DNA from: Tabrizicola sp.
Lineage (GTDB): Bacteria > Pseudomonadota > Alphaproteobacteria > Rhodobacterales > Rhodobacteraceae
Direction: 5' to 3'
Length of the DNA: 64,000 bases
Assembly (NCBI RefSeq): GCF_022842145.1
Contig: NZ_JALHQD010000001.1
Location: 901,701 to 965,700 of the forward strand
The notes under the pieces are model-generated. The model was not told the DNA's origin. It saw nothing but the letters and a program-made list of their open reading frames with translations, and did no database searches. Below, in pieces: positions 21,301 through 29,460 of the stretch. The translations under genes and the position numbers were made by a program. Numbering within the stretch: the stretch's first letter is position 1; the number at the start of each line of letters is the position of its first letter.

Positions 21301-21981
21301 TCATCTCTTCGACCGCCACGTTCCGAACCAGGCCCCGATCCGTCCGAAGAAACCGCGCGCTTCCTTGCGGGCGTTCTCGACCCGTTGGCCTGCGGCGTCG
21401 AACGTGTCGCCCACATCGGCCAAGGCCGGGTCGACCATCCGCTCGCGGAATTGCAGCCACATCTTGCGGATCATGACGGCGACGAACAGCAGGACGACCA
21501 GCAGGATGATGTTGACCCAAGGGATCAGCGTCACGTCCGGCCCTTCGACCGGGGTGATGTTCACGGCGTTGGGGAAGATCGAGAAGATCGGCAGCCGCCA
21601 ACCATAGTGCGTGATCGCCACCCATTGCGGGTTGGCCTTCTCGGACTTCAGGTTCTGCGCCTCGGCCTGCAGGGTGCTGCTGTCCCACTTGAAGTAGGGC
21701 GGCCAGAACCAGCCGGTATCCTCGTTGCGGTAGACCATCACGTGCTGGCCATCGGGGAAGACCGCGTCGATGAAGCGGATGTCGCGGATCGTGGCCGTCG
21801 TCTCGACCCCGGTCCCGGTGTCCTCGATCGAATAGAACATCCAGTTCCCGCCGATGGGCGTGTTCTTGTTGTAGGTGTTGATGATCTGCACCACATCACG
21901 CTGCGGCAGGGTGTAGTGCAGGAACAACCCGACGATCACCACCGCCAGAACCGCCAGGCCCCATTTGATCTTGGTCCACAT
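21301..21981 (-). CDS. DUF1523 family membrane protein
   Basis: A 226-residue protein recognised from memory as DUF1523, function unknown. One N-terminal helix (IKWGLAVLAVVIVGLFLHYTLP) is followed by a globular domain of about 115 residues with IINTYNKN and WFWPPYFKWDSS. A second helix lies near residue 160 (IPWVNIILLVVLLFVAVMI), and a charged C-terminal tail ends in RIGAWFGTWRSKR. Last gene of the nine-gene AAA+ operon, 12 bases after the previous gene with a GGAG-type site in the gap. Confidence 0.8.
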   Translation of the reverse strand: MWTKIKWGLAVLAVVIVGLFLHYTLPQRDVVQIINTYNKNTPIGGNWMFYSIEDTGTGVETTATIRDIRFIDAVFPDGQHVMVYRNEDTGWFWPPYFKWDSSTLQAEAQNLKSEKANPQWVAITHYGWRLPIFSIFPNAVNITPVEGPDVTLIPWVNIILLVVLLFVAVMIRKMWLQFRERMVDPALADVGDTFDAAGQRVENARKEARGFFGRIGAWFGTWRSKR

Positions 21982-21993
21982 GGGTCAGCTCCT

Positions 21994-22272
21994 TCAGTAC
22001 CAGTTGATGTAGTAGATCGTCAGCGCAAACCCGATGGTCGGCAGGATATAGATAAGCCACAACAGGCGCTTTTTCAGCCCCTTGTCGTAATGAACCATCC
22101 CCGCTTCGATGAAGGCCCGGCGTTCTTCCGCCGTTTGCCCCTCACGTGCGGGGTCGGTGTCCCATTCCTTCTCCAGCTTTTCGCGCCGGACAGAACGCGA
22201 GTAGATGCCGGCGACGAAGTAGATGATCGTCAGCCCGATATACATGAAGAATGCTAGGCGCAGCCAACCCAT
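21994..22272 (-). CDS. Small two-helix membrane protein of the AAA+ operon
   Basis: A 92-residue protein with helices at the N-terminus (LRLAFFMYIGLTIIYFVAGIY) and C-terminus (LLWLIYILPTIGFALTIYY). They are separated by a charged segment of about 40 residues (RREKLEKEW and GQTAEERRAF). No family recognised. Its ATG directly follows the stop of the DUF6638-like gene, so it is co-translated. It probably anchors or partners the neighbouring soluble proteins. Confidence 0.75.
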   Translation of the reverse strand: MGWLRLAFFMYIGLTIIYFVAGIYSRSVRREKLEKEWDTDPAREGQTAEERRAFIEAGMVHYDKGLKKRLLWLIYILPTIGFALTIYYINWY

Positions 22273-23625
22273 CTACCGTCTCCCACCCCAAGGACCCACG
22301 ACCGGGCGCGAGGGGCGGGGGCCCTCGGCCATCTGCGGGCGGTGCAACTCGTCCATGCTTGGCTCTGGCCCGAACAGCGCCGTCCGCGCGCCCTCACGGT
22401 CCACCTGATACTCCCGCGCCAGGAAGTCCGCCACGTAGGTCTTCTTCCGGTCGCTCCACGCCGCATACTGCGCGTAGAACAGCTCCTTGTGGACGATGAA
22501 CATCTGCCGGACGTCCATCGGCGAAAGTTCGGACAGCAGCATGTTCACCAAGTCGCGGTCCGCGCCTGCCTTGCCGCGCAGTGTATAGAAATACGCCGGA
22601 TGCTCTGACGTGATCTTTGGCCAGGGTCCCCCGGCCTCGACCCAGCGCAGCAGGGCCGCCAGCCCAAGGAACTCCTCCGGCAATGAGGAGCCCAGCTTGT
22701 AGGCCACCTTCCGAAGTTCCGTCCGCCGCGCATCGCCGATCTCGATCCCCAGCCGGTCGGCGGCATCGACAAGGATGAAGTCCATCTTCTGCCGCAGGAT
22801 CGCCGCCGCATCGGTACCCCGCGCCTGGACGATCGGTTCGGTCAGGTTGTTGCGGTCCAGCCAATCCGCGATCTGGTTGCGATGCGTCAGGTCCATCACC
22901 TGCGCTACCGGCACCTCGCCCAGCGACTTCCAGTCCAGCGTCGAGATCGCCGCCGGAAACCGCACGTCGCGGAAGATGTAGACCCCGCCGAAATGGCTGG
23001 TCCAGTAGTTCTGCTGCGCGAAGGTCATCGCCGGCAGGCTGATCGGCACCCGCGTCACGTCGCCGGTCTTCTTCGCCAGCCCGATCATCTCTGCCACCAG
23101 CACATCATCGCGCCAGCCGTCGGGTTCCTGCCGGAAGCGCTCGATCAGCTTCGCGAGCTTCCCCGCATCCGCCACATGCCCGCCAATCGTATCCGCCTCG
23201 ACCGTCACCTGCCGGATGTCGAACAGCTTGGCGGGCGTGTCGAACGCGTAGACCGAGTTCTGCAGCTCCCCCGCCACCGCATCCCGTGCCGTCAGCGCAA
23301 AGAGCTGCGCCTCGTTCTTCTCGATGAACTGCGTCAGGATCCCCCGGCTGGTGGAGAACTTGATGTTCAGCAAAGGCGCATCCTTCTGCGCCGTGGTCAG
23401 CAAGATGAACTGCCGGTTCGCCCCGTTGGGGTTGAGGTAGAGGTCATCCTTCAGCTCATCCCCGATCTCCGGCGAATAGCCCGACAGGTCGATGTGGAAA
23501 TCGTCGAGCTTCGTGGTCTTGCCCGTCAGATGCTTGAGCGCCCGGTTGTAGCGTTCGACAAGGGCGGGCGAGGAGACCTCGATCAGGTTCCCGAACATCA
23601 GGCCGCGTTGGATGAGGCGTTTCAT
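22273..23625 (-). CDS. Conserved protein of the AAA+ operon (DUF6638-like)
   Basis: A soluble protein of 450 residues, function unknown. It resembles a Rhodobacterales family that I recall as DUF6638 (unverified). The N-terminus MKRLIQRGLMFGNLIEV precedes a mixed alpha/beta region. No catalytic motif stands out. A C-terminal tail is rich in Pro and Arg (GPRPSRPVVGPWGGRR). The ORF track starts at 23688, but the ATG at 23625 forms an ATGA overlap with the preceding gene and has the natural start sequence. It lies between the accessory low-GC membrane gene and the 92-residue membrane gene. Confidence 0.8.
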   Translation of the reverse strand: MKRLIQRGLMFGNLIEVSSPALVERYNRALKHLTGKTTKLDDFHIDLSGYSPEIGDELKDDLYLNPNGANRQFILLTTAQKDAPLLNIKFSTSRGILTQFIEKNEAQLFALTARDAVAGELQNSVYAFDTPAKLFDIRQVTVEADTIGGHVADAGKLAKLIERFRQEPDGWRDDVLVAEMIGLAKKTGDVTRVPISLPAMTFAQQNYWTSHFGGVYIFRDVRFPAAISTLDWKSLGEVPVAQVMDLTHRNQIADWLDRNNLTEPIVQARGTDAAAILRQKMDFILVDAADRLGIEIGDARRTELRKVAYKLGSSLPEEFLGLAALLRWVEAGGPWPKITSEHPAYFYTLRGKAGADRDLVNMLLSELSPMDVRQMFIVHKELFYAQYAAWSDRKKTYVADFLAREYQVDREGARTALFGPEPSMDELHRPQMAEGPRPSRPVVGPWGGRR

Positions 23626-24518
23626 TTTGATCTTCGCCCACTTCTTTTCTTGAAGACAGTCAGCAACATCGTCACAGACTGAAGACATTCTCGAACGCGG
23701 AGTTCTTCAAGCTTGATCTCGTCCGCCTTCGATAAGTCATCTGATATTGCAACAATCTCTGCAAGCACGTCCCTAATTTCTTCGAGTTCGCTCGATCCCA
23801 CACACTTAATTGATGAAAGATTCTCTTTGCCCACAGTAGAAAAGAAGCCAAGAGCCATCGACGCATTCTTGCCGATTATTATGGGCAATTTTCCAATTTC
23901 GGCCTCGGAACGACTCATAAAGGGACAGTAGATGAGATACGATCCGTCAATGCTGTCATCTGAGCGTATCTTGTGGGCTGAAAGATTCTCAAAGTTCCGC
24001 CCACGTGGCCCAGCTATTCCAATTGTCTTCTTGTGCTCTTGAAAGCGTGCAATCAGAAGATCAAAGTATCTATGAAGTGTATTTGAAGCCTCAACATGTC
24101 TGCGAGTCCGCTGTTCATCCAAGAAGATCTCTCCTTGTAGCTGGAGAGCGTTCACTTGCGCAGCCTGCGCCTGGGCCATCTGTTCTGAGGCCTTGCGTTG
24201 TGCACTCAATTCTCGCCTAGTCATAGCAAGCTCACGACGCTGCAGGCGCAGCTCATTGCCTTGCATCAAGACCGTCACAATGATCCACAGGAAGGCTAAC
24301 GTTCCCGCAATTCCCGCAATCGTGTCCCCAATTTCGTTTGGCGACGCATTCCAGAAGGCTCGCCACCTTGGCAACTTGCTTTCGGCAACTTCTCCGAACG
24401 ACAACAGGATGACTAGGCCGAAGATTCCAATCGTCGCAAAGGTTCCAAATCGCAGGTATCCGTTCGTCGCTCGCCAGCGGGCGAGCAGGCGGAGGCCAGG
24501 TTTTGGTTTTCGGCTCAC
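23622..24518 (-). CDS. Low-GC membrane/coiled-coil protein inserted in the AAA+ operon
   Basis: A 298-residue protein, function unknown. Two transmembrane helices are visible, near residues 22-41 (LRFGTFATIGIFGLVILLSF) and 65-86 (DTIAGIAGTLAFLWIIVTVL). A predicted coiled coil of about 55 residues follows (ELRLQRRELAMTRREL), then a C-terminal cytoplasmic domain. The helix-plus-ELRLQRREL pattern occurs in accessory membrane proteins of mobile or defence regions. GC is visibly lower than in all neighbours, especially in the C-terminal half, with codons rarely used nearby. Yet both ends overlap neighbours by ATGA, so it is integrated into the operon. A recent acquisition or a rapidly changing module is likely. 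Confidence 0.75.
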   Translation of the reverse strand: MSRKPKPGLRLLARWRATNGYLRFGTFATIGIFGLVILLSFGEVAESKLPRWRAFWNASPNEIGDTIAGIAGTLAFLWIIVTVLMQGNELRLQRRELAMTRRELSAQRKASEQMAQAQAAQVNALQLQGEIFLDEQRTRRHVEASNTLHRYFDLLIARFQEHKKTIGIAGPRGRNFENLSAHKIRSDDSIDGSYLIYCPFMSRSEAEIGKLPIIIGKNASMALGFFSTVGKENLSSIKCVGSSELEEIRDVLAEIVAISDDLSKADEIKLEELRVRECLQSVTMLLTVFKKRSGRRSK

Positions 24519-24898
24519 CCCTTCCCCCCCTCATCCACCATCCGCATCCCGATCCGCCGGTTCATCTCCTGCGCCTTCACCAGCCAGACGAACCCCAGCA
24601 CCGGCCCCCACAACAGCGCGAACAAGGCCGAGCGGCCCAGGAAGAACCCCGCCCGCTCGACCGGAGCCGCCAGAATCCCCGCCATCACCCCGTCATTGAT
24701 CGCCGCATACAGCCCCACCGCCAGCACGGCCCCCACGACCAGAGCCACCACAGCCGTCTTCACCACCGCCCAGGCCAGCACCCGCTGCGACAGGCTCCCG
24801 CGCCCCGCGAACCACCCCGGCAGCAGCGCCACCAGCGCGCTCAGCCCCGCCAGTGGCAGGATGGAGTTCCACAGGGTCAGGCGAAGCGCCTCACTCAA
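24515..24898 (-). CDS. Small three-helix membrane protein of the AAA+ operon
   Basis: A 127-residue protein with three or four hydrophobic segments (ILPLAGLSALVALLPGWFAG; VLAWAVVKTAVVALVVGAVLAVGLY; SALFALLWGPVLGFVWLVKA) and a charged tail MNRRIGMRMVDEGGKG. No family recognised. The start overlaps the stop of the AAA+ gene (ATGA), and its stop overlaps the start of the low-GC gene. It is a plausible membrane anchor for the AAA+ protein. Confidence 0.75.
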   Translation of the reverse strand: MSEALRLTLWNSILPLAGLSALVALLPGWFAGRGSLSQRVLAWAVVKTAVVALVVGAVLAVGLYAAINDGVMAGILAAPVERAGFFLGRSALFALLWGPVLGFVWLVKAQEMNRRIGMRMVDEGGKG

Positions 24899-26823
24899 CC
24901 CTTCCCCTCCAGATACCGCCGCTTCGCCTCTTCCGTCCGGCCAAAGTCACGCACCATCCCCTGAATGGCCACCTCGTCCGACTTGTCGGCATAGCGGAAC
25001 TCGCTGTCGGCGTAGCGGTTGATCTCCTGGATCACCATCTCGACCGAGATCGGCGTCATCAGCCCCCGGATCATCGCCAGCTTTTCGTCATAGGGCTTGA
25101 AGAGGAACAGGTCCGGCTGTTCCATCCACTCATCCGGCAGTTCAAAGTCCATCGCGCGGACCTTGACCGCATCGGTGATGTTCTTGATCGCCCGCCCGGT
25201 GAACCGCTCATCCGCCGTCTGGATCGCCTTCAGGTAGGCGCCGATCTTGGCGATGGTATCCAAGGGGCCGATGTCCTTGGCGACCTTCTCCCACACCGTC
25301 AGCAGCCCCGCCTCATGGGGCCGGGAGTGGCCTTCGAAGCTGGCGGCGACGGCCTTCTTGATCTCCTGCGCAGCGAACAGCTCATGGTCCCCGACCGGGA
25401 TCGCGTGGTTCTTGCCCAGAAGCAGCGAGAGGATGTCGATGTAATCCTCCTTCGACTGCGGCCCGTCGACCAGAAACCGCGCCCCGGCCCGCTGGCGCAA
25501 GGCGTCGTCTACGTTCTCGGGGTAGTTACTGAACATCCCGAAGGTGCAGTTCCCCCGCACCACCGTCCCCGCGCCGGCGAAGGCCTGCATGAAGACCGCC
25601 GTTACCTCTTGCTGGCCCGCGCTGGACTGCCGGTCCCCCCGCTTGCCCGCCACCTGGTCGATGTCGTCGATGGTGCCAAAGCCGATCACCGAGGGGTCCA
25701 GCACCGCGTCGATGAAGGCCTTCGCGTTCTGGCCGGACTTGCCCTGATAGCTGTCGATCTGGTCGATGCTGAAGTTCTGGTAGCGGAACGGATACCCCGC
25801 CACCTTGCAGTAATCATTGAGCAATCCCGCCATCATCTGGATCAGCGTGGTCTTCCCCGTCCCAGGCTTGCCATCCCCCATGAAGGTGAAGATGAACCCG
25901 CCCAGTTCCGCAAACGGGTTCAGCCGCCGTTCGAAATCATAGGCCATCAGCATCTTCGACAGTCGCAGCGACTGGTACTTGGCGATGTGGTTGCCCACCA
26001 CCTCATGCGGCTTCTTGAAGGCCATGGCGATCATGCCGCCCTTCGCCGCCTTGGCCGGCTTGAAGCCCGCAATGGTCAGCCCATCCGCCTCCACCTTCCA
26101 CGAGGCCCCCGTGAACACGGACACCCGCGCGCCATTCTCCGCCCGGATCTGCACCTTCTTCATCAGCGCCTCGGCAAAGGCCGACACCACCGCCACCAGC
26201 TTCACATCATCCGTCGCCAGCGCCCCGATGTCCTGATCCAGCTCCCACAAGACGCCCTGCAACGCCAGCGGGGCATTGTCGGTCAGAACCTCCTCCACCT
26301 CGCCCAGCTCGACGGTCGCGGTCCCGACATGCGGCGCGATCAGATAGGCCAGCGCATTGCCGAAGGTGAACAGCACCACCAGAGCTTCACCCGCCAGAAG
26401 CTCCCCGAACTCCCCGCGCCGCGGTTCCGGCACCCGCCCCTCCAGGTTCGCCCGCTTCAACTCCGCGAGCCCCGACTGGGCGGCGAACGTCTCCCCCATC
26501 GCCAGCGCAATCGCCAGCGACCGCCGCAAAGCATTCAGCACCGCCGCCTGCACCGGCGAGACCAGCCCGTCGCCAAGCCCCTCGACCCGCTCGGACAGCC
26601 GCACCCCACCCGGCCGCGCCGTCGACCGCGTCGCCATCCCCGGCACCGTCGACCGGAACGTCGGCCGTGTTCCCACGCCGGGAGACCGCTCCACTTGCGC
26701 CGCCACGACCAAAGGCTTCGCCAACCGCGGCGCATGATCGAAGCCCAGGACCATCCCCAGCGCCGCCTCGTACTGCGCCCGGATCGTCTCTTCCTTCAGC
26801 TCCATCGTGTCGCGCGTGCTCAT
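24895..26823 (-). CDS. AAA+ family ATPase, core of an uncharacterised operon
   Basis: A 642-residue cytoplasmic ATPase of unknown role. The N-terminal ~300 residues are unique, with an Arg/Pro/Thr-rich linker near 45-75 and a helical region. The AAA+ module follows: Walker A GKPGTGKTT near residue 318, Walker B FGTIDDID near 385, and a sensor/arginine-finger block FSNYPENVDDALRQRAGARF near 440. The C-terminal part carries a lid domain. The architecture suggests a ring-forming remodelling ATPase. Start chosen at ATG 26823 with AAAGGG eight to nine bases upstream; an in-frame ATG at 26841 lies inside an intergenic repeat. The stop overlaps the next gene by ATGA. Confidence 0.88.
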   Translation of the reverse strand: MSTRDTMELKEETIRAQYEAALGMVLGFDHAPRLAKPLVVAAQVERSPGVGTRPTFRSTVPGMATRSTARPGGVRLSERVEGLGDGLVSPVQAAVLNALRRSLAIALAMGETFAAQSGLAELKRANLEGRVPEPRRGEFGELLAGEALVVLFTFGNALAYLIAPHVGTATVELGEVEEVLTDNAPLALQGVLWELDQDIGALATDDVKLVAVVSAFAEALMKKVQIRAENGARVSVFTGASWKVEADGLTIAGFKPAKAAKGGMIAMAFKKPHEVVGNHIAKYQSLRLSKMLMAYDFERRLNPFAELGGFIFTFMGDGKPGTGKTTLIQMMAGLLNDYCKVAGYPFRYQNFSIDQIDSYQGKSGQNAKAFIDAVLDPSVIGFGTIDDIDQVAGKRGDRQSSAGQQEVTAVFMQAFAGAGTVVRGNCTFGMFSNYPENVDDALRQRAGARFLVDGPQSKEDYIDILSLLLGKNHAIPVGDHELFAAQEIKKAVAASFEGHSRPHEAGLLTVWEKVAKDIGPLDTIAKIGAYLKAIQTADERFTGRAIKNITDAVKVRAMDFELPDEWMEQPDLFLFKPYDEKLAMIRGLMTPISVEMVIQEINRYADSEFRYADKSDEVAIQGMVRDFGRTEEAKRRYLEGKG

Positions 26824-26830
26824 CGGCAAA

Positions 26831-26890
26831 AACCCTTTCATCTGTCCACAAATATCCCGGGGGTCCGGGGGCTGGCCCCCGGGGGGTCCG
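26831..26890 (-). repeat. Intergenic repeat family 1, variant copy D with GC-rich hairpin
   Basis: On the minus strand one half reads GGGATATTTGTGGACAGATG then AAAGGG, matching the other copies. The other half is replaced by a perfect hairpin CCGGGGGC-TG-GCCCCCGG (26865-26882). It occupies nearly all of the 71-base gap between two genes of the AAA+ operon. It supplies the AAAGGG ribosome binding site of the AAA+ gene. Confidence 0.75.
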
Positions 26891-26894
26891 CAAA

Positions 26895-28022
26895 TCACAA
26901 CGTCGGAATAAGCCGCCCCCCGGCCCCGACGACAAACTTCCGCAACCCCTGCAACCCCTTGGGGTCCTGCTCGACCAGAACCTGATAGGGCTTCTCCGGC
27001 AGGATGATCATCCGGTCCTGCCGCGTAGCCCCCAGTTCCGCCCCGGCCACCGCGTCCAGCTTGTAGACCTGCCGCCCGACAGTGGAGAACCAGCCGTCCT
27101 TCACCTCTTCCTCGCGGTCGCTGATCAGATCCTCGACCGTCCAGACCAGCGCCCAATCCTCGCCTTCGGGGGCCTTCGCGCCCTCCAGCACCTTGGAAAT
27201 CGGCCCCGATTGCAGCGTGAAGCTGGCAGAATACATCGGCCCCAGGATGATCCGCCGCAGCCGTTTCGGGTGCAGGTCGGCGAAGTCCTTGTCGAACCCC
27301 GTCGCGATGGTCAAAAGCTTCAACCCGCCCACCGACTGCGCCATCAGCGCGGCCTGCGCTTGCGGCCAGCGGTAGGCGTCATTCAGGATCGGCCGTTTGC
27401 CGCTGTCCTCCAGGTCCATGAGGTACACCACCGGCAGGTTGACCTGAGTGTCCCAGACCGCCCAATGCACCAGGAAATGCCGCCGCTCGCCCAGATCCTC
27501 GATCCACTGCGCATCGGGGTCGTTCCTGGCCCAGAACATGCCCCCCGCGGCCAAGGCCTCATAGTAGTACCGCTGCGACAGCGCGAACTGCAGCGCCGTT
27601 GGGATCGTCTGGTCGCCGACGATCTGCCGCACCATCCGGTCCTTCAGCTCGGCTTCCGAGGGCATCCCGGCCAGATGCTTCTCGGCCTGCTGGGCATCGA
27701 CCGCCATGGTCATCAGTTCCTGCGCGACCGGAAACCCGCTTTCATGCCGGTCGATGGTCAGCCGAGGCGCCGTCTCTCCCCGCCCGGTCATCAGGTACTT
27801 GTGCGACAGCGCCCGGAAGGTCCCAGCGACGGCGGTCAGATACCGCCCCAGCACCCGAGCCTCGGTCCGGCTCAGCCGCCCCTCCGCCTCCATCTCCGCC
27901 GCTACCCGGCCCAGATGCCCGGTGATCCGGACGAACTTGGCAAAGTAGCGCCGCGCGACGAGCGTGTCGTAAAGCTCGTGATGGTCCGAGGTGAGGACGT
28001 CTTTGACGGTGGGGTCAGCCAT
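26895..28022 (-). CDS. Conserved hypothetical protein of the AAA+ operon
   Basis: A 375-residue protein predicted to be soluble, function unknown. It begins MADPTVKDVLTSDHHELYD. An N-terminal helical region (about 1-110) is followed by mixed structure with no catalytic motif I recognise. WVRN-type or nucleotide-binding signatures are absent. The C-terminus contains RQDRMIILPEKPYQVLVEQ. It overlaps the upstream 106-residue membrane gene by eight bases. It is followed by repeat copy D before the AAA+ gene, the largest gap inside the operon. Confidence 0.75.
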   Translation of the reverse strand: MADPTVKDVLTSDHHELYDTLVARRYFAKFVRITGHLGRVAAEMEAEGRLSRTEARVLGRYLTAVAGTFRALSHKYLMTGRGETAPRLTIDRHESGFPVAQELMTMAVDAQQAEKHLAGMPSEAELKDRMVRQIVGDQTIPTALQFALSQRYYYEALAAGGMFWARNDPDAQWIEDLGERRHFLVHWAVWDTQVNLPVVYLMDLEDSGKRPILNDAYRWPQAQAALMAQSVGGLKLLTIATGFDKDFADLHPKRLRRIILGPMYSASFTLQSGPISKVLEGAKAPEGEDWALVWTVEDLISDREEEVKDGWFSTVGRQVYKLDAVAGAELGATRQDRMIILPEKPYQVLVEQDPKGLQGLRKFVVGAGGRLIPTL

Positions 28023-28335
28023 CGCGGTTGCGACCTTCGGGGTCTAGCCAGAGAAAAAGTGACATCGGACCTAGGGCCATTTGCCTCCGGTATCGGTCGT
28101 TGCCTTCAAGGAGACGATGATAGAACGCCTTTTGCACGGGTCGCATGAGCCCACCAAACAGCAGCAGAACACACCCAAAGAAGGCAAGCGCGATGCAGAT
28201 GTTTGCTGCAATCATGCCCAAGTCTTTCCTGCCGTTCTCGGTCAACAGATAGATGGCTCCAAACATGAGACCCGCAAGGAGCAACAAGATTGCTCCCCAC
28301 TTCCTGCTCCACCGAGTTTGATCGCTAAAGGTCAC
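28015..28335 (-). CDS. Small two-helix membrane protein, low GC
   Basis: A 106-residue protein with two transmembrane helices (WGAILLLLAGLMFGAIYLL, about 13-31; and IAANICIALAFFGCVLLLFGGLM, about 42-64). A basic/aromatic C-terminal tail follows (RPVQKAFYHRLLEGNDRYRR). No family recognised. Its GC is lower than that of the two flanking genes, as for the 298-residue membrane gene further down. The ATG overlaps the stop of the coiled-coil gene (ATGA), and its end overlaps the next gene by eight bases. Confidence 0.7.
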   Translation of the reverse strand: MTFSDQTRWSRKWGAILLLLAGLMFGAIYLLTENGRKDLGMIAANICIALAFFGCVLLLFGGLMRPVQKAFYHRLLEGNDRYRRQMALGPMSLFLWLDPEGRNRDG

Positions 28336-29402
28336 TCGCCATACGCGTTCTTGTCGTGCTTCTCGACAATCGAGGCAAACCGGCGCGCGAACCGCTCATC
28401 CGCCTTCGCCTTCTGCTCAAGGATCGCCCTTGCGAACACCATGTGCCCCTCATGCGCTTCCAGCATGTCGGCCATCTTGTCGTTGGTCGCCGCCCCGATC
28501 GCCGCCATCGCGGTCTGGGCTTCCTGGTCGGTCTTCACCCCGATCTCGTTGATCCGGTGCGCCACGTCCTGCTGCTGGGCCGTCTTCAACGAAGACGTCA
28601 AAGCATCGTACAGCACCACCCGCTGCTTGGTGTCCGTCTGCAGCTTGTTGATCAGCACCAGCTGCGTCGCCGCCTGGTTCTGCAGGGAGTCGACCCAGGT
28701 CTTGCCCTTCTCGATATAGCGCTCCAGCGTCTGCGACTTCGCCAGCTTCACTTGCTCGTCCTGAACCAGCGCGTTGTACTGCGCGTTCAGGTTGGCAAGT
28801 TCCGTCTCCAGCTTGGTCCGCGCGGCGGCGTCCTGCTCGACGCTGATCCGGTTCTCCAGCTCGATGATCCTCGGGTCCAGTGAGGCGACTTCCTTTCGCA
28901 CCGCCTCCAGGGCACCCACGGTTTCTTCCCGTTCGGTCAGGGTCGAGGCGAGGTTCCCCTCCACCCGCGTCTTCTGCACGTTCAGAAGGTCAAGCTGGCC
29001 CTGCAGCAGCTTCACGATCACATCGGATTTCGCGATGAGGTCCTGCAGCTTGTCGTCGATGGTGGCCGCACGCATCCGTTCCTGACGCATCGATTCCGCC
29101 TTGGCGGACGAGAAGATGCCGATGAAGGTCTCCATCCCCGTCTTTGACCGCATCTCGGCAAACTCGGCCGAGAAGCCGGCGGTCACGTCGTCCAGCCCCA
29201 TGATCAGCTCGGCGATATTGGCGTTCATCAGGTCGGTGTGCTTGCTGACGTCCTCCAGCGTGGCGTTTTCCACGTCCAGCTGGACGCCCTGGTCAAGCTT
29301 GGTGCGCGCGGCTTCTATCCGGCTGGTGATGGCGGAAATCTTCGCCTGCGCCTGCGCGACCTGAGCCTGGCTTTCCTTGATCTGCGTTTCGAAATCGGCC
29401 AT
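28332..29402 (-). CDS. Long coiled-coil protein, first gene of the AAA+ operon
   Basis: A 356-residue, almost wholly helical protein, rich in Ala, Gln, Glu and Lys. Heptad-like stretches lie at about residues 1-45 and 125-240, and a C-terminal helical bundle contains QLVLINKLQTDTKQRVVL. No membrane helix or signal peptide. A distant likeness to TelA-type toxic-anion proteins was considered, but the conserved TelA segments are not visible. It probably acts as a scaffold or substrate for the AAA+ partner. The start has a strong GGAGGG site four bases before ATG. A double dyad lies just upstream. Confidence 0.8.
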   Translation of the reverse strand: MADFETQIKESQAQVAQAQAKISAITSRIEAARTKLDQGVQLDVENATLEDVSKHTDLMNANIAELIMGLDDVTAGFSAEFAEMRSKTGMETFIGIFSSAKAESMRQERMRAATIDDKLQDLIAKSDVIVKLLQGQLDLLNVQKTRVEGNLASTLTEREETVGALEAVRKEVASLDPRIIELENRISVEQDAAARTKLETELANLNAQYNALVQDEQVKLAKSQTLERYIEKGKTWVDSLQNQAATQLVLINKLQTDTKQRVVLYDALTSSLKTAQQQDVAHRINEIGVKTDQEAQTAMAAIGAATNDKMADMLEAHEGHMVFARAILEQKAKADERFARRFASIVEKHDKNAYGE

Positions 29403-29427: not shown

Positions 29428-29460
29428 CATCACATAGTGATGTAACAGAGAATTACATCA
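29428..29460. promoter_or_regulatory. Double-dyad operator upstream of the AAA+ operon
   Basis: TGATGTAA-N7-TTACATCA (29438-29460) is a perfect 8-base-arm dyad. It overlaps a second perfect dyad, CATCAC-ATA-GTGATG (29428-29442). It lies 26-58 bases before the start codon of the first operon gene, where a repressor or activator would act. The regulator is not identifiable from the window. Confidence 0.6.

Follow-up and report, generated by a model that had tools for sequence, protein, structure and literature searches.

Conflict systems are known in which effectors are repeatedly displaced within a preserved operonic context, the displacement being visible between close relatives (PMC7159879). 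Here we describe a nine-gene operon at positions 21301-29402 of a 64,000-nucleotide stretch of Tabrizicola sp. DNA (contig NZ_JALHQD010000001.1; hereafter the window), in which a constant core built around an AAA+ ATPase brackets two slots. Whole genes are exchanged in these slots, codon-exact; the residents mostly face the same way as the operon and are often coupled to it in translation, and in one of the two slots many of them belong to anti-phage or cell-killing families. MoxR-vWA ternary and related nucleoside triphosphate (NTP)-dependent conflict systems (Kaur et al. 2020, PMC7159879) resemble this locus in their constant NTPase core and in effectors displaced between close relatives, and their effector repertoire (TIR, nucleases, PIN) overlaps the slot residents. 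The present locus differs in having a classical AAA (PF00004) and no vWA, VMAP, iSTAND or FtsH components, and in that each putative effector is a whole gene of its own, placed in one of two exact slots, and not a domain fused to a core protein. Membership in the MoxR-vWA ternary systems was considered and rejected, as none of the nine proteins matched vWA or MoxR in Pfam.

Bacteriophage exclusion (BREX) and BREX-related loci embed auxiliary or backup effectors, among them restriction endonuclease, HEPN, PIN and Schlafen proteins (PMC12839542). The likeness is that of varied nucleases inside a conserved operon, in that case a defence operon; the Tabrizicola operon differs in lacking PglZ, methyltransferase, BrxC and BrxL, in its unrelated core, and in that most occupied loci hold a different resident. 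Proteins of the putAbiC (PF16872) and other Abi types offer a further likeness, in that the family of one operon protein (CC298) has a two-transmembrane (2-TM) anchor in common with putAbiC carriers and AbiJ_NTD4 and AbiP-like residents occur, but such proteins are known as stand-alone genes, whereas here they lie within an AAA+ operon and are coupled to it. Systems that pair a constant NTPase core with variable effectors are already known as a general kind; the gene set and its cassette-slot architecture are new relative to PADLOC-DB 2.0.0 and the searched literature. In literature searches no paper described these genes as a set or named DUF6638, and the papers that mention DUF1523 concern other subjects, judging by title and abstract. 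An earlier sequence-only reading of this DNA knew of no described system with these genes, and profile and literature searches agree, having matched no characterised system.

Two variable slots in a constant operon

The nine genes are, in 5' to 3' order:

28332..29402, minus strand: CC, coiled-coil-type, cytosolic-looking protein of 356 amino acids (aa); core gene 1, in 89/150 genomes
28015..28335, minus strand: TM106, 2-TM protein of 106 aa; slot A resident, replaced or absent in most relatives
26895..28022, minus strand: U375, soluble protein of 375 aa without known family; core gene 2, in 89/150 genomes, co-located
24895..26823, minus strand: AAA+ ATPase (classical) of 642 aa, Pfam AAA; core gene 3, in 89/150 genomes
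24515..24898, minus strand: TM127, protein of 127 aa with 3-4 TM segments; slot C resident 1, of the largest slot C family
23622..24518, minus strand: CC298, 298 aa, with 2-TM anchor, coiled region and variable C-terminus; slot C resident 2
22273..23625, minus strand: DUF6638 protein (PF20343) of 450 aa; core gene 4
21994..22272, minus strand: TM92, 2-TM protein of 92 aa; core gene 5 (Rhodobacteraceae form), in 87/87 complete loci
21301..21981, minus strand: DUF1523 protein (PF07509) of 226 aa; core gene 6 (Rhodobacteraceae form)

These open reading frames (ORFs) have the strand and lengths given in the sequence-only reading, and its statement that most junctions are 4-base ATGA or 8-base overlaps holds for five of eight. 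Four-base overlaps join CC to TM106, AAA+ to TM127, TM127 to CC298 and CC298 to DUF6638, and the TM106/U375 junction is an 8-base overlap. U375 and AAA+ are separated by a 71-bp gap, counted from the ATG start of the 642-aa product that is common to relatives; DUF6638 and TM92 abut, and TM92 and DUF1523 lie 12 bp apart.

We searched 150 Rhodobacteraceae genomes with four core proteins (CC, U375, AAA+ and DUF6638) and fetched 88 operon loci, the 88th of which is interrupted by a contig end. The order CC-U375-AAA+-DUF6638-TM92-DUF1523 is found in 87/87 complete loci, and the same order recurs in 70 more complete loci from named genomes, a set that partly overlaps the 87 in species. TM106, TM127 and CC298 lie outside this constant set. 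The fixed nine-gene set of the sequence-only reading thus gives way to six constant genes with variable residents, the three outsiders being swapped in close relatives. Since unrelated genes stand in their place elsewhere, the overlaps of these three are no evidence that they belong to one obligatory complex, although that reading took such coupling as a usual sign of a physical complex.

Two junctions hold most of the variable genes, CC-U375 (slot A) and AAA+-DUF6638 (slot C); a third, U375-AAA+ (slot B), is used in few loci. ORFs in the slots were called mechanically, a few surely being spurious; grouped by sequence, the 177 from 88 loci gave 112 clusters, of which 92 have a single member. 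Residents are present in slot A in 54/87 loci, in slot B in 8/87 and in slot C in 75/87 (empty in 12/87), and as an internal control the DUF6638-TM92 and TM92-DUF1523 junctions carry no insertion in any locus. The occupants of slot A are mostly unrelated genes across loci, and the turnover is visible between near-identical operons: where AAA+ identity between two loci is 97% or more, a slot A family is shared in 2/9 pairs and a slot C family in 4/11, and two pairs (L035/L079 and L042/L077) with core DNA 93-96% identical have unrelated slot C genes. Mapped on the core tree, slot C takes 43 states among 86 loci with 56 changes.

The breakpoints of these exchanges lie within 0-6 bp of the stop and start codons on either side. 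In the two pairs just named, homology breaks off at slot C 2-5 bp short of the AAA+ stop and returns at the DUF6638 start or one base ahead of it; at slot A it breaks off 6 bp after the CC stop and returns with the U375 start. The longest slot C ORF lies in operon orientation in 98/114 loci, with a median coverage of 95% (antisense, 47%), and the first slot C gene starts at an ATGA formed with the AAA+ stop in 62/140 loci. From these sequences we infer that recombination through the conserved flanking genes would be the simplest route of slot swapping.

Families of the slot residents

Profile searches place many slot C residents in families of defence or cell-killing type. They include a TIR_2 protein (1.5e-27), Mrr_cat with Mrr_N (1.3e-32), two RNase_T/DEDDh proteins with BRCT (best 4.8e-18), four DUF559 nucleases (1.2e-32), three putAbiC proteins (best 1.3e-19), AbiJ_NTD4 (3.7e-10), the Schlafen domain SLFN_AlbA_2 (3.8e-12) and, at locus L164, a PIN_10 protein (1.1e-15) adjoining DUF433; two DUF2971 residents (1.2e-5), DUF3825, HATPase_c_2 (GHKL) and, weakly, DUF4145 also occur. 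The PADLOC defence-candidate models PDC-S02 (6.7e-34), PDC-S48 (1e-31), PDC-S31 (5e-20) and PDC-S66 (6e-12) are matched as well, together with mREase_IV and AbiP, and the GHKL proteins gave a DrmA-like match. For comparison, 80 control genes flanking the same loci matched seven families, each in 1-2 genes and the best at 7e-9; below an E-value of 1e-8 there are at least seven slot C proteins and one control match. These defence-type genes are the most informative feature of the locus. The sequence-only reading, which had the nine genes right, made no mention of them, of the three genes outside the conserved set or of the low G+C content of CC298 (about 0.49-0.50, compared with 0.62-0.67 in the neighbourhood).

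The residents in the window itself all carry TM segments. The TM127 family is restricted to slot C, and the window TM127 starts at its ATGA overlap with AAA+. CC298 belongs to a family of 20 slot C ORFs with a common N-terminal 2-TM anchor (consensus PNExGDTLAGxxGxLAFxWIIxTVxxQxxELxxQR) and divergent C-termini, one of which, in the relative L041_C3, carries putAbiC PF16872 (1.1e-10). CC298 itself was rejected as a putAbiC protein: it has no Pfam match at 0.001, PF16872 included, and has only the N-terminal anchor in common. Slot A residents are mostly 60-130 aa long with 1-3 TM segments (1-4 in another count), and DUF4279 and a glycolipid-binding family also occur there.

Among Rhizobiaceae, several genomes have DUF559 in slot C and others have nothing there; a Fic-like ORF, judged by eye only, lies in slot B of one genome. 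At loci L209, L212, L249-L255 and L131, from Rhizobiaceae and Tabrizicola, the slot C DUF559 gene is accompanied by a short repeat-like sequence (translated PSPTRGEG).

Distribution and inheritance of the core

CC, U375, AAA+ and DUF6638 occur in an identical set of 89/150 genomes, all or nothing and co-located; these genomes span 43/74 genera, and 61/150 genomes have no operon. Apart from split or fragmentary matches the core genes are single-copy in the 89 genomes, CC is 70-87% identical among relatives, and DUF6638 is never found without the rest of this four-gene heart. The core keeps one gene order throughout 43 genera, so its arrangement is not a matter of chance. Homologues are co-located in relatives; scattering, which would have spoken against the set as first read, is not seen, and the co-inheritance expected there is seen for the four-gene heart. 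It does not extend to DUF1523, which is present in 144/150 genomes, including most of those without the operon, and is for that reason not a dedicated member but also an independent gene. On a tree of the concatenated core, the 43 genera require 42 changes and could not require fewer, which shows vertical inheritance of the core at the genus level.

Beyond Rhodobacteraceae, Sinorhizobium, Shinella, Rhizobium, a further alphaproteobacterial family and Vibrio carry a four-gene form (CC-U375-AAA+-DUF6638); TM92 is absent from the Rhizobiaceae and Vibrio versions. The Vibrio copies are located on replicons of about 0.9 Mb. At the Vibrio loci L206-L208 an mfd gene follows the four-gene core, and the 0.9-Mb replicon is listed as a plasmid. 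Order and family searches within the order of genome G358 gave no further operon copies, and a search of viral contigs for the AAA+ protein found none. Locus L247, in a genome from outside the class (G517), is a compact Rhodobacteraceae-like six-gene version with empty slots, which suggests transfer of the whole operon.

Two further loci sets bear on how the operon changes. At locus L050 (G123:C52, 17000-31000), broken copies of CC, U375, AAA+ and DUF6638 lie side by side while DUF1523 is intact elsewhere, as expected if the core genes decay jointly; this decayed copy is a natural knock-out of the operon. At loci L052 and L094-L101 (genus g22), DNA identity over TM92 and DUF1523 ranges from about 67% to 90%, with the upstream core at 85-91%, hinting that the 3' tail may also recombine as a block.

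Predicted properties of the core proteins

Three of the nine proteins match Pfam families: AAA (PF00004, 9e-12), DUF6638 (PF20343, 4e-207) and DUF1523 (PF07509, 3e-65); the other six have no Pfam match above cut-off, and NCBIfam, PADLOC and PHROGs profiles added nothing decisive for the core proteins. Judged by its sequence, the ATPase is an AAA+ protein of the classical clade, in which residues 318-325 (GKPGTGKT) form Walker A, IDD is Walker B and SNYPENVDDALRQRAGARF is the sensor/arginine region; Walker A, Walker B, sensor and arginine-finger region are near-invariant across 21 relatives. In PADLOC-DB 2.0.0 (BREX, Zorya, Druantia and others), CC, U375, DUF6638, TM92 and DUF1523 are unmatched.

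The AlphaFold2 model of U375 has a predicted local distance difference test score (pLDDT) of 88.9 and a predicted TM-score of 0.87, and finds no match at E<=0.001 in PDB or among the viral models of BFVD. Because a confident model matches no solved or viral structure, U375 may represent a new fold. The DUF6638 prediction is moderate (pLDDT 74), and its model has no PDB match at E<=0.001. A suspected resemblance of CC to TelA (PF05816) was rejected by profile-profile comparison, the hhalign probability being 0.1%; a true TelA is encoded elsewhere in the same genomes that carry CC.

A palindrome upstream of the operon

One further feature lies 39-57 bp upstream of CC:

29440..29458, no strand assigned: candidate operator, palindrome ATGTAA-N7-TTACAT

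The palindrome is exact in the window, where 0.02 would be expected. TGTAA-N7-TTACA, with at most one mismatch, stands upstream of the operon in 34/88 loci, compared with 0.4 in shuffles, mostly at -55 to -62, and both sequence and position are conserved in many genera. It is possibly the operator of a regulator. The only other near-match in the genome (one mismatch) is at C4:311071, upstream of a small membrane-protein ORF; a wider regulon was rejected, a single further site being about the chance level by estimate. SOS, CtrA and other standard motifs are not enriched upstream of the operon.

Discussion

We favour, at somewhat better than even confidence, the reading that this locus is a modular conflict system, most likely anti-phage, its constant AAA+ machine serving effectors that can be exchanged. 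The reasons are the constant core, the codon-exact exchange and the defence-type residents, taken with published conflict systems and BREX auxiliary effectors. As in those conflict systems, putative effectors are repeatedly displaced within a preserved operon, as seen between close relatives, and the variable parts fall in known effector families, though most residents are unrecognised. We hold it evenly balanced whether the locus is a vertically inherited immune chassis not described before, that is, a classical AAA+ complex with two codon-exact cassette slots whose effectors are swapped by flanking recombination. A lineage could in this way retain a single sensor/activator machine while changing among unrelated effectors such as nucleases, TIR, HEPN-like and membrane-acting proteins. 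In alphaproteobacteria the locus is probably a modular immune system of a sort so far undescribed.

In such a system, an AAA+ ring with CC, U375 and DUF6638 would form a sensor or remodelling (activator) complex near the inner membrane, where TM92 and DUF1523 would lie. The slot proteins would be effectors produced in fixed ratio with the AAA+ machine, which would keep them inactive or recruit them, and they would be released once infection or envelope damage is sensed. Those of the window (TM106, TM127 and the anchored, putAbiC-like CC298) would be membrane-acting and lead to growth arrest or abortive infection.

Several observations weigh against a conflict system. The operon is vertically inherited and surrounded by housekeeping genes, both unlike most defence systems. 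Its core has no PADLOC match beyond weak similarity of the AAA+ protein to TRIP13 (2e-4) and IetA (1e-3). Most slot residents have no recognised family, including a 10-member G+C-poor family and the most frequent one of all, the TM127 family (42 pooled ORFs), a small TM protein; and the contrast between slot C and control genes in PADLOC, strong in quality, is moderate to modest in count. Slots are empty in compact four-gene versions (Vibrio, Rhizobium) and in G517, and slot C is empty in 12/87 Rhodobacteraceae loci, which means that the core must have some activity even where no effector can be recognised.

The main rival draws on these same points. It holds that an envelope or stress-response operon unrelated to immunity, in effect a housekeeping operon, serves as a landing pad, its two junctions being tolerated, well-expressed insertion sites for defence and other genes that drift in through recombination. 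The compact versions with empty slots, the vertical inheritance among housekeeping neighbours and the many unrecognised small TM residents would all fit, as would the DUF559 nucleases, which are accompanied by short palindromic-type repeats in both Rhizobiaceae and Tabrizicola and are possibly selfish elements. We nevertheless consider this explanation clearly the less likely, as insertions are concentrated at two of the five core junctions (slot B is used rarely, the two 3' junctions never), residents show operon-strand bias and exact ATGA coupling, the same slot is independently occupied in Rhizobiaceae and Rhodobacteraceae, and there is no sign of a dedicated integration site or integrase.

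A second rival, which follows the remodelling machine of the sequence-only reading and in which the AAA+ protein remodels CC at the inner membrane for membrane maintenance and the slot proteins are species-specific membrane adaptors, accords with the combination of AAA+, CC, TM92 and DUF1523 and with the mostly TM-containing slot A residents; it leaves the TIR, Mrr, DEDDh, PIN, AbiJ and HEPN-like residents unexplained and sits poorly with an operon dispensable in 61/150 genomes, and we regard it as unlikely. That the locus is a toxin-antitoxin system or a device for competition between bacteria, the core providing immunity or export, is very improbable: variable residents do stand beside a constant ATPase and L164 has its PIN_10/DUF433 pair, but the core has no secretion signals or secretion-system genes and most slots hold one gene without a matching antidote.

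Even if the operon were only a landing pad, gene-exact cassette exchange in a translationally coupled operon is unusual and requires a mechanism. If instead the locus is a modular conflict system, it would be an unusually clear example of a stable activator serving interchangeable effectors, and its slots would be a ready collection of candidate effectors, most of them without known family. Rhodobacteraceae, a major marine family, would then carry in about 60% of the sampled genomes an immune hub absent from the catalogues searched.

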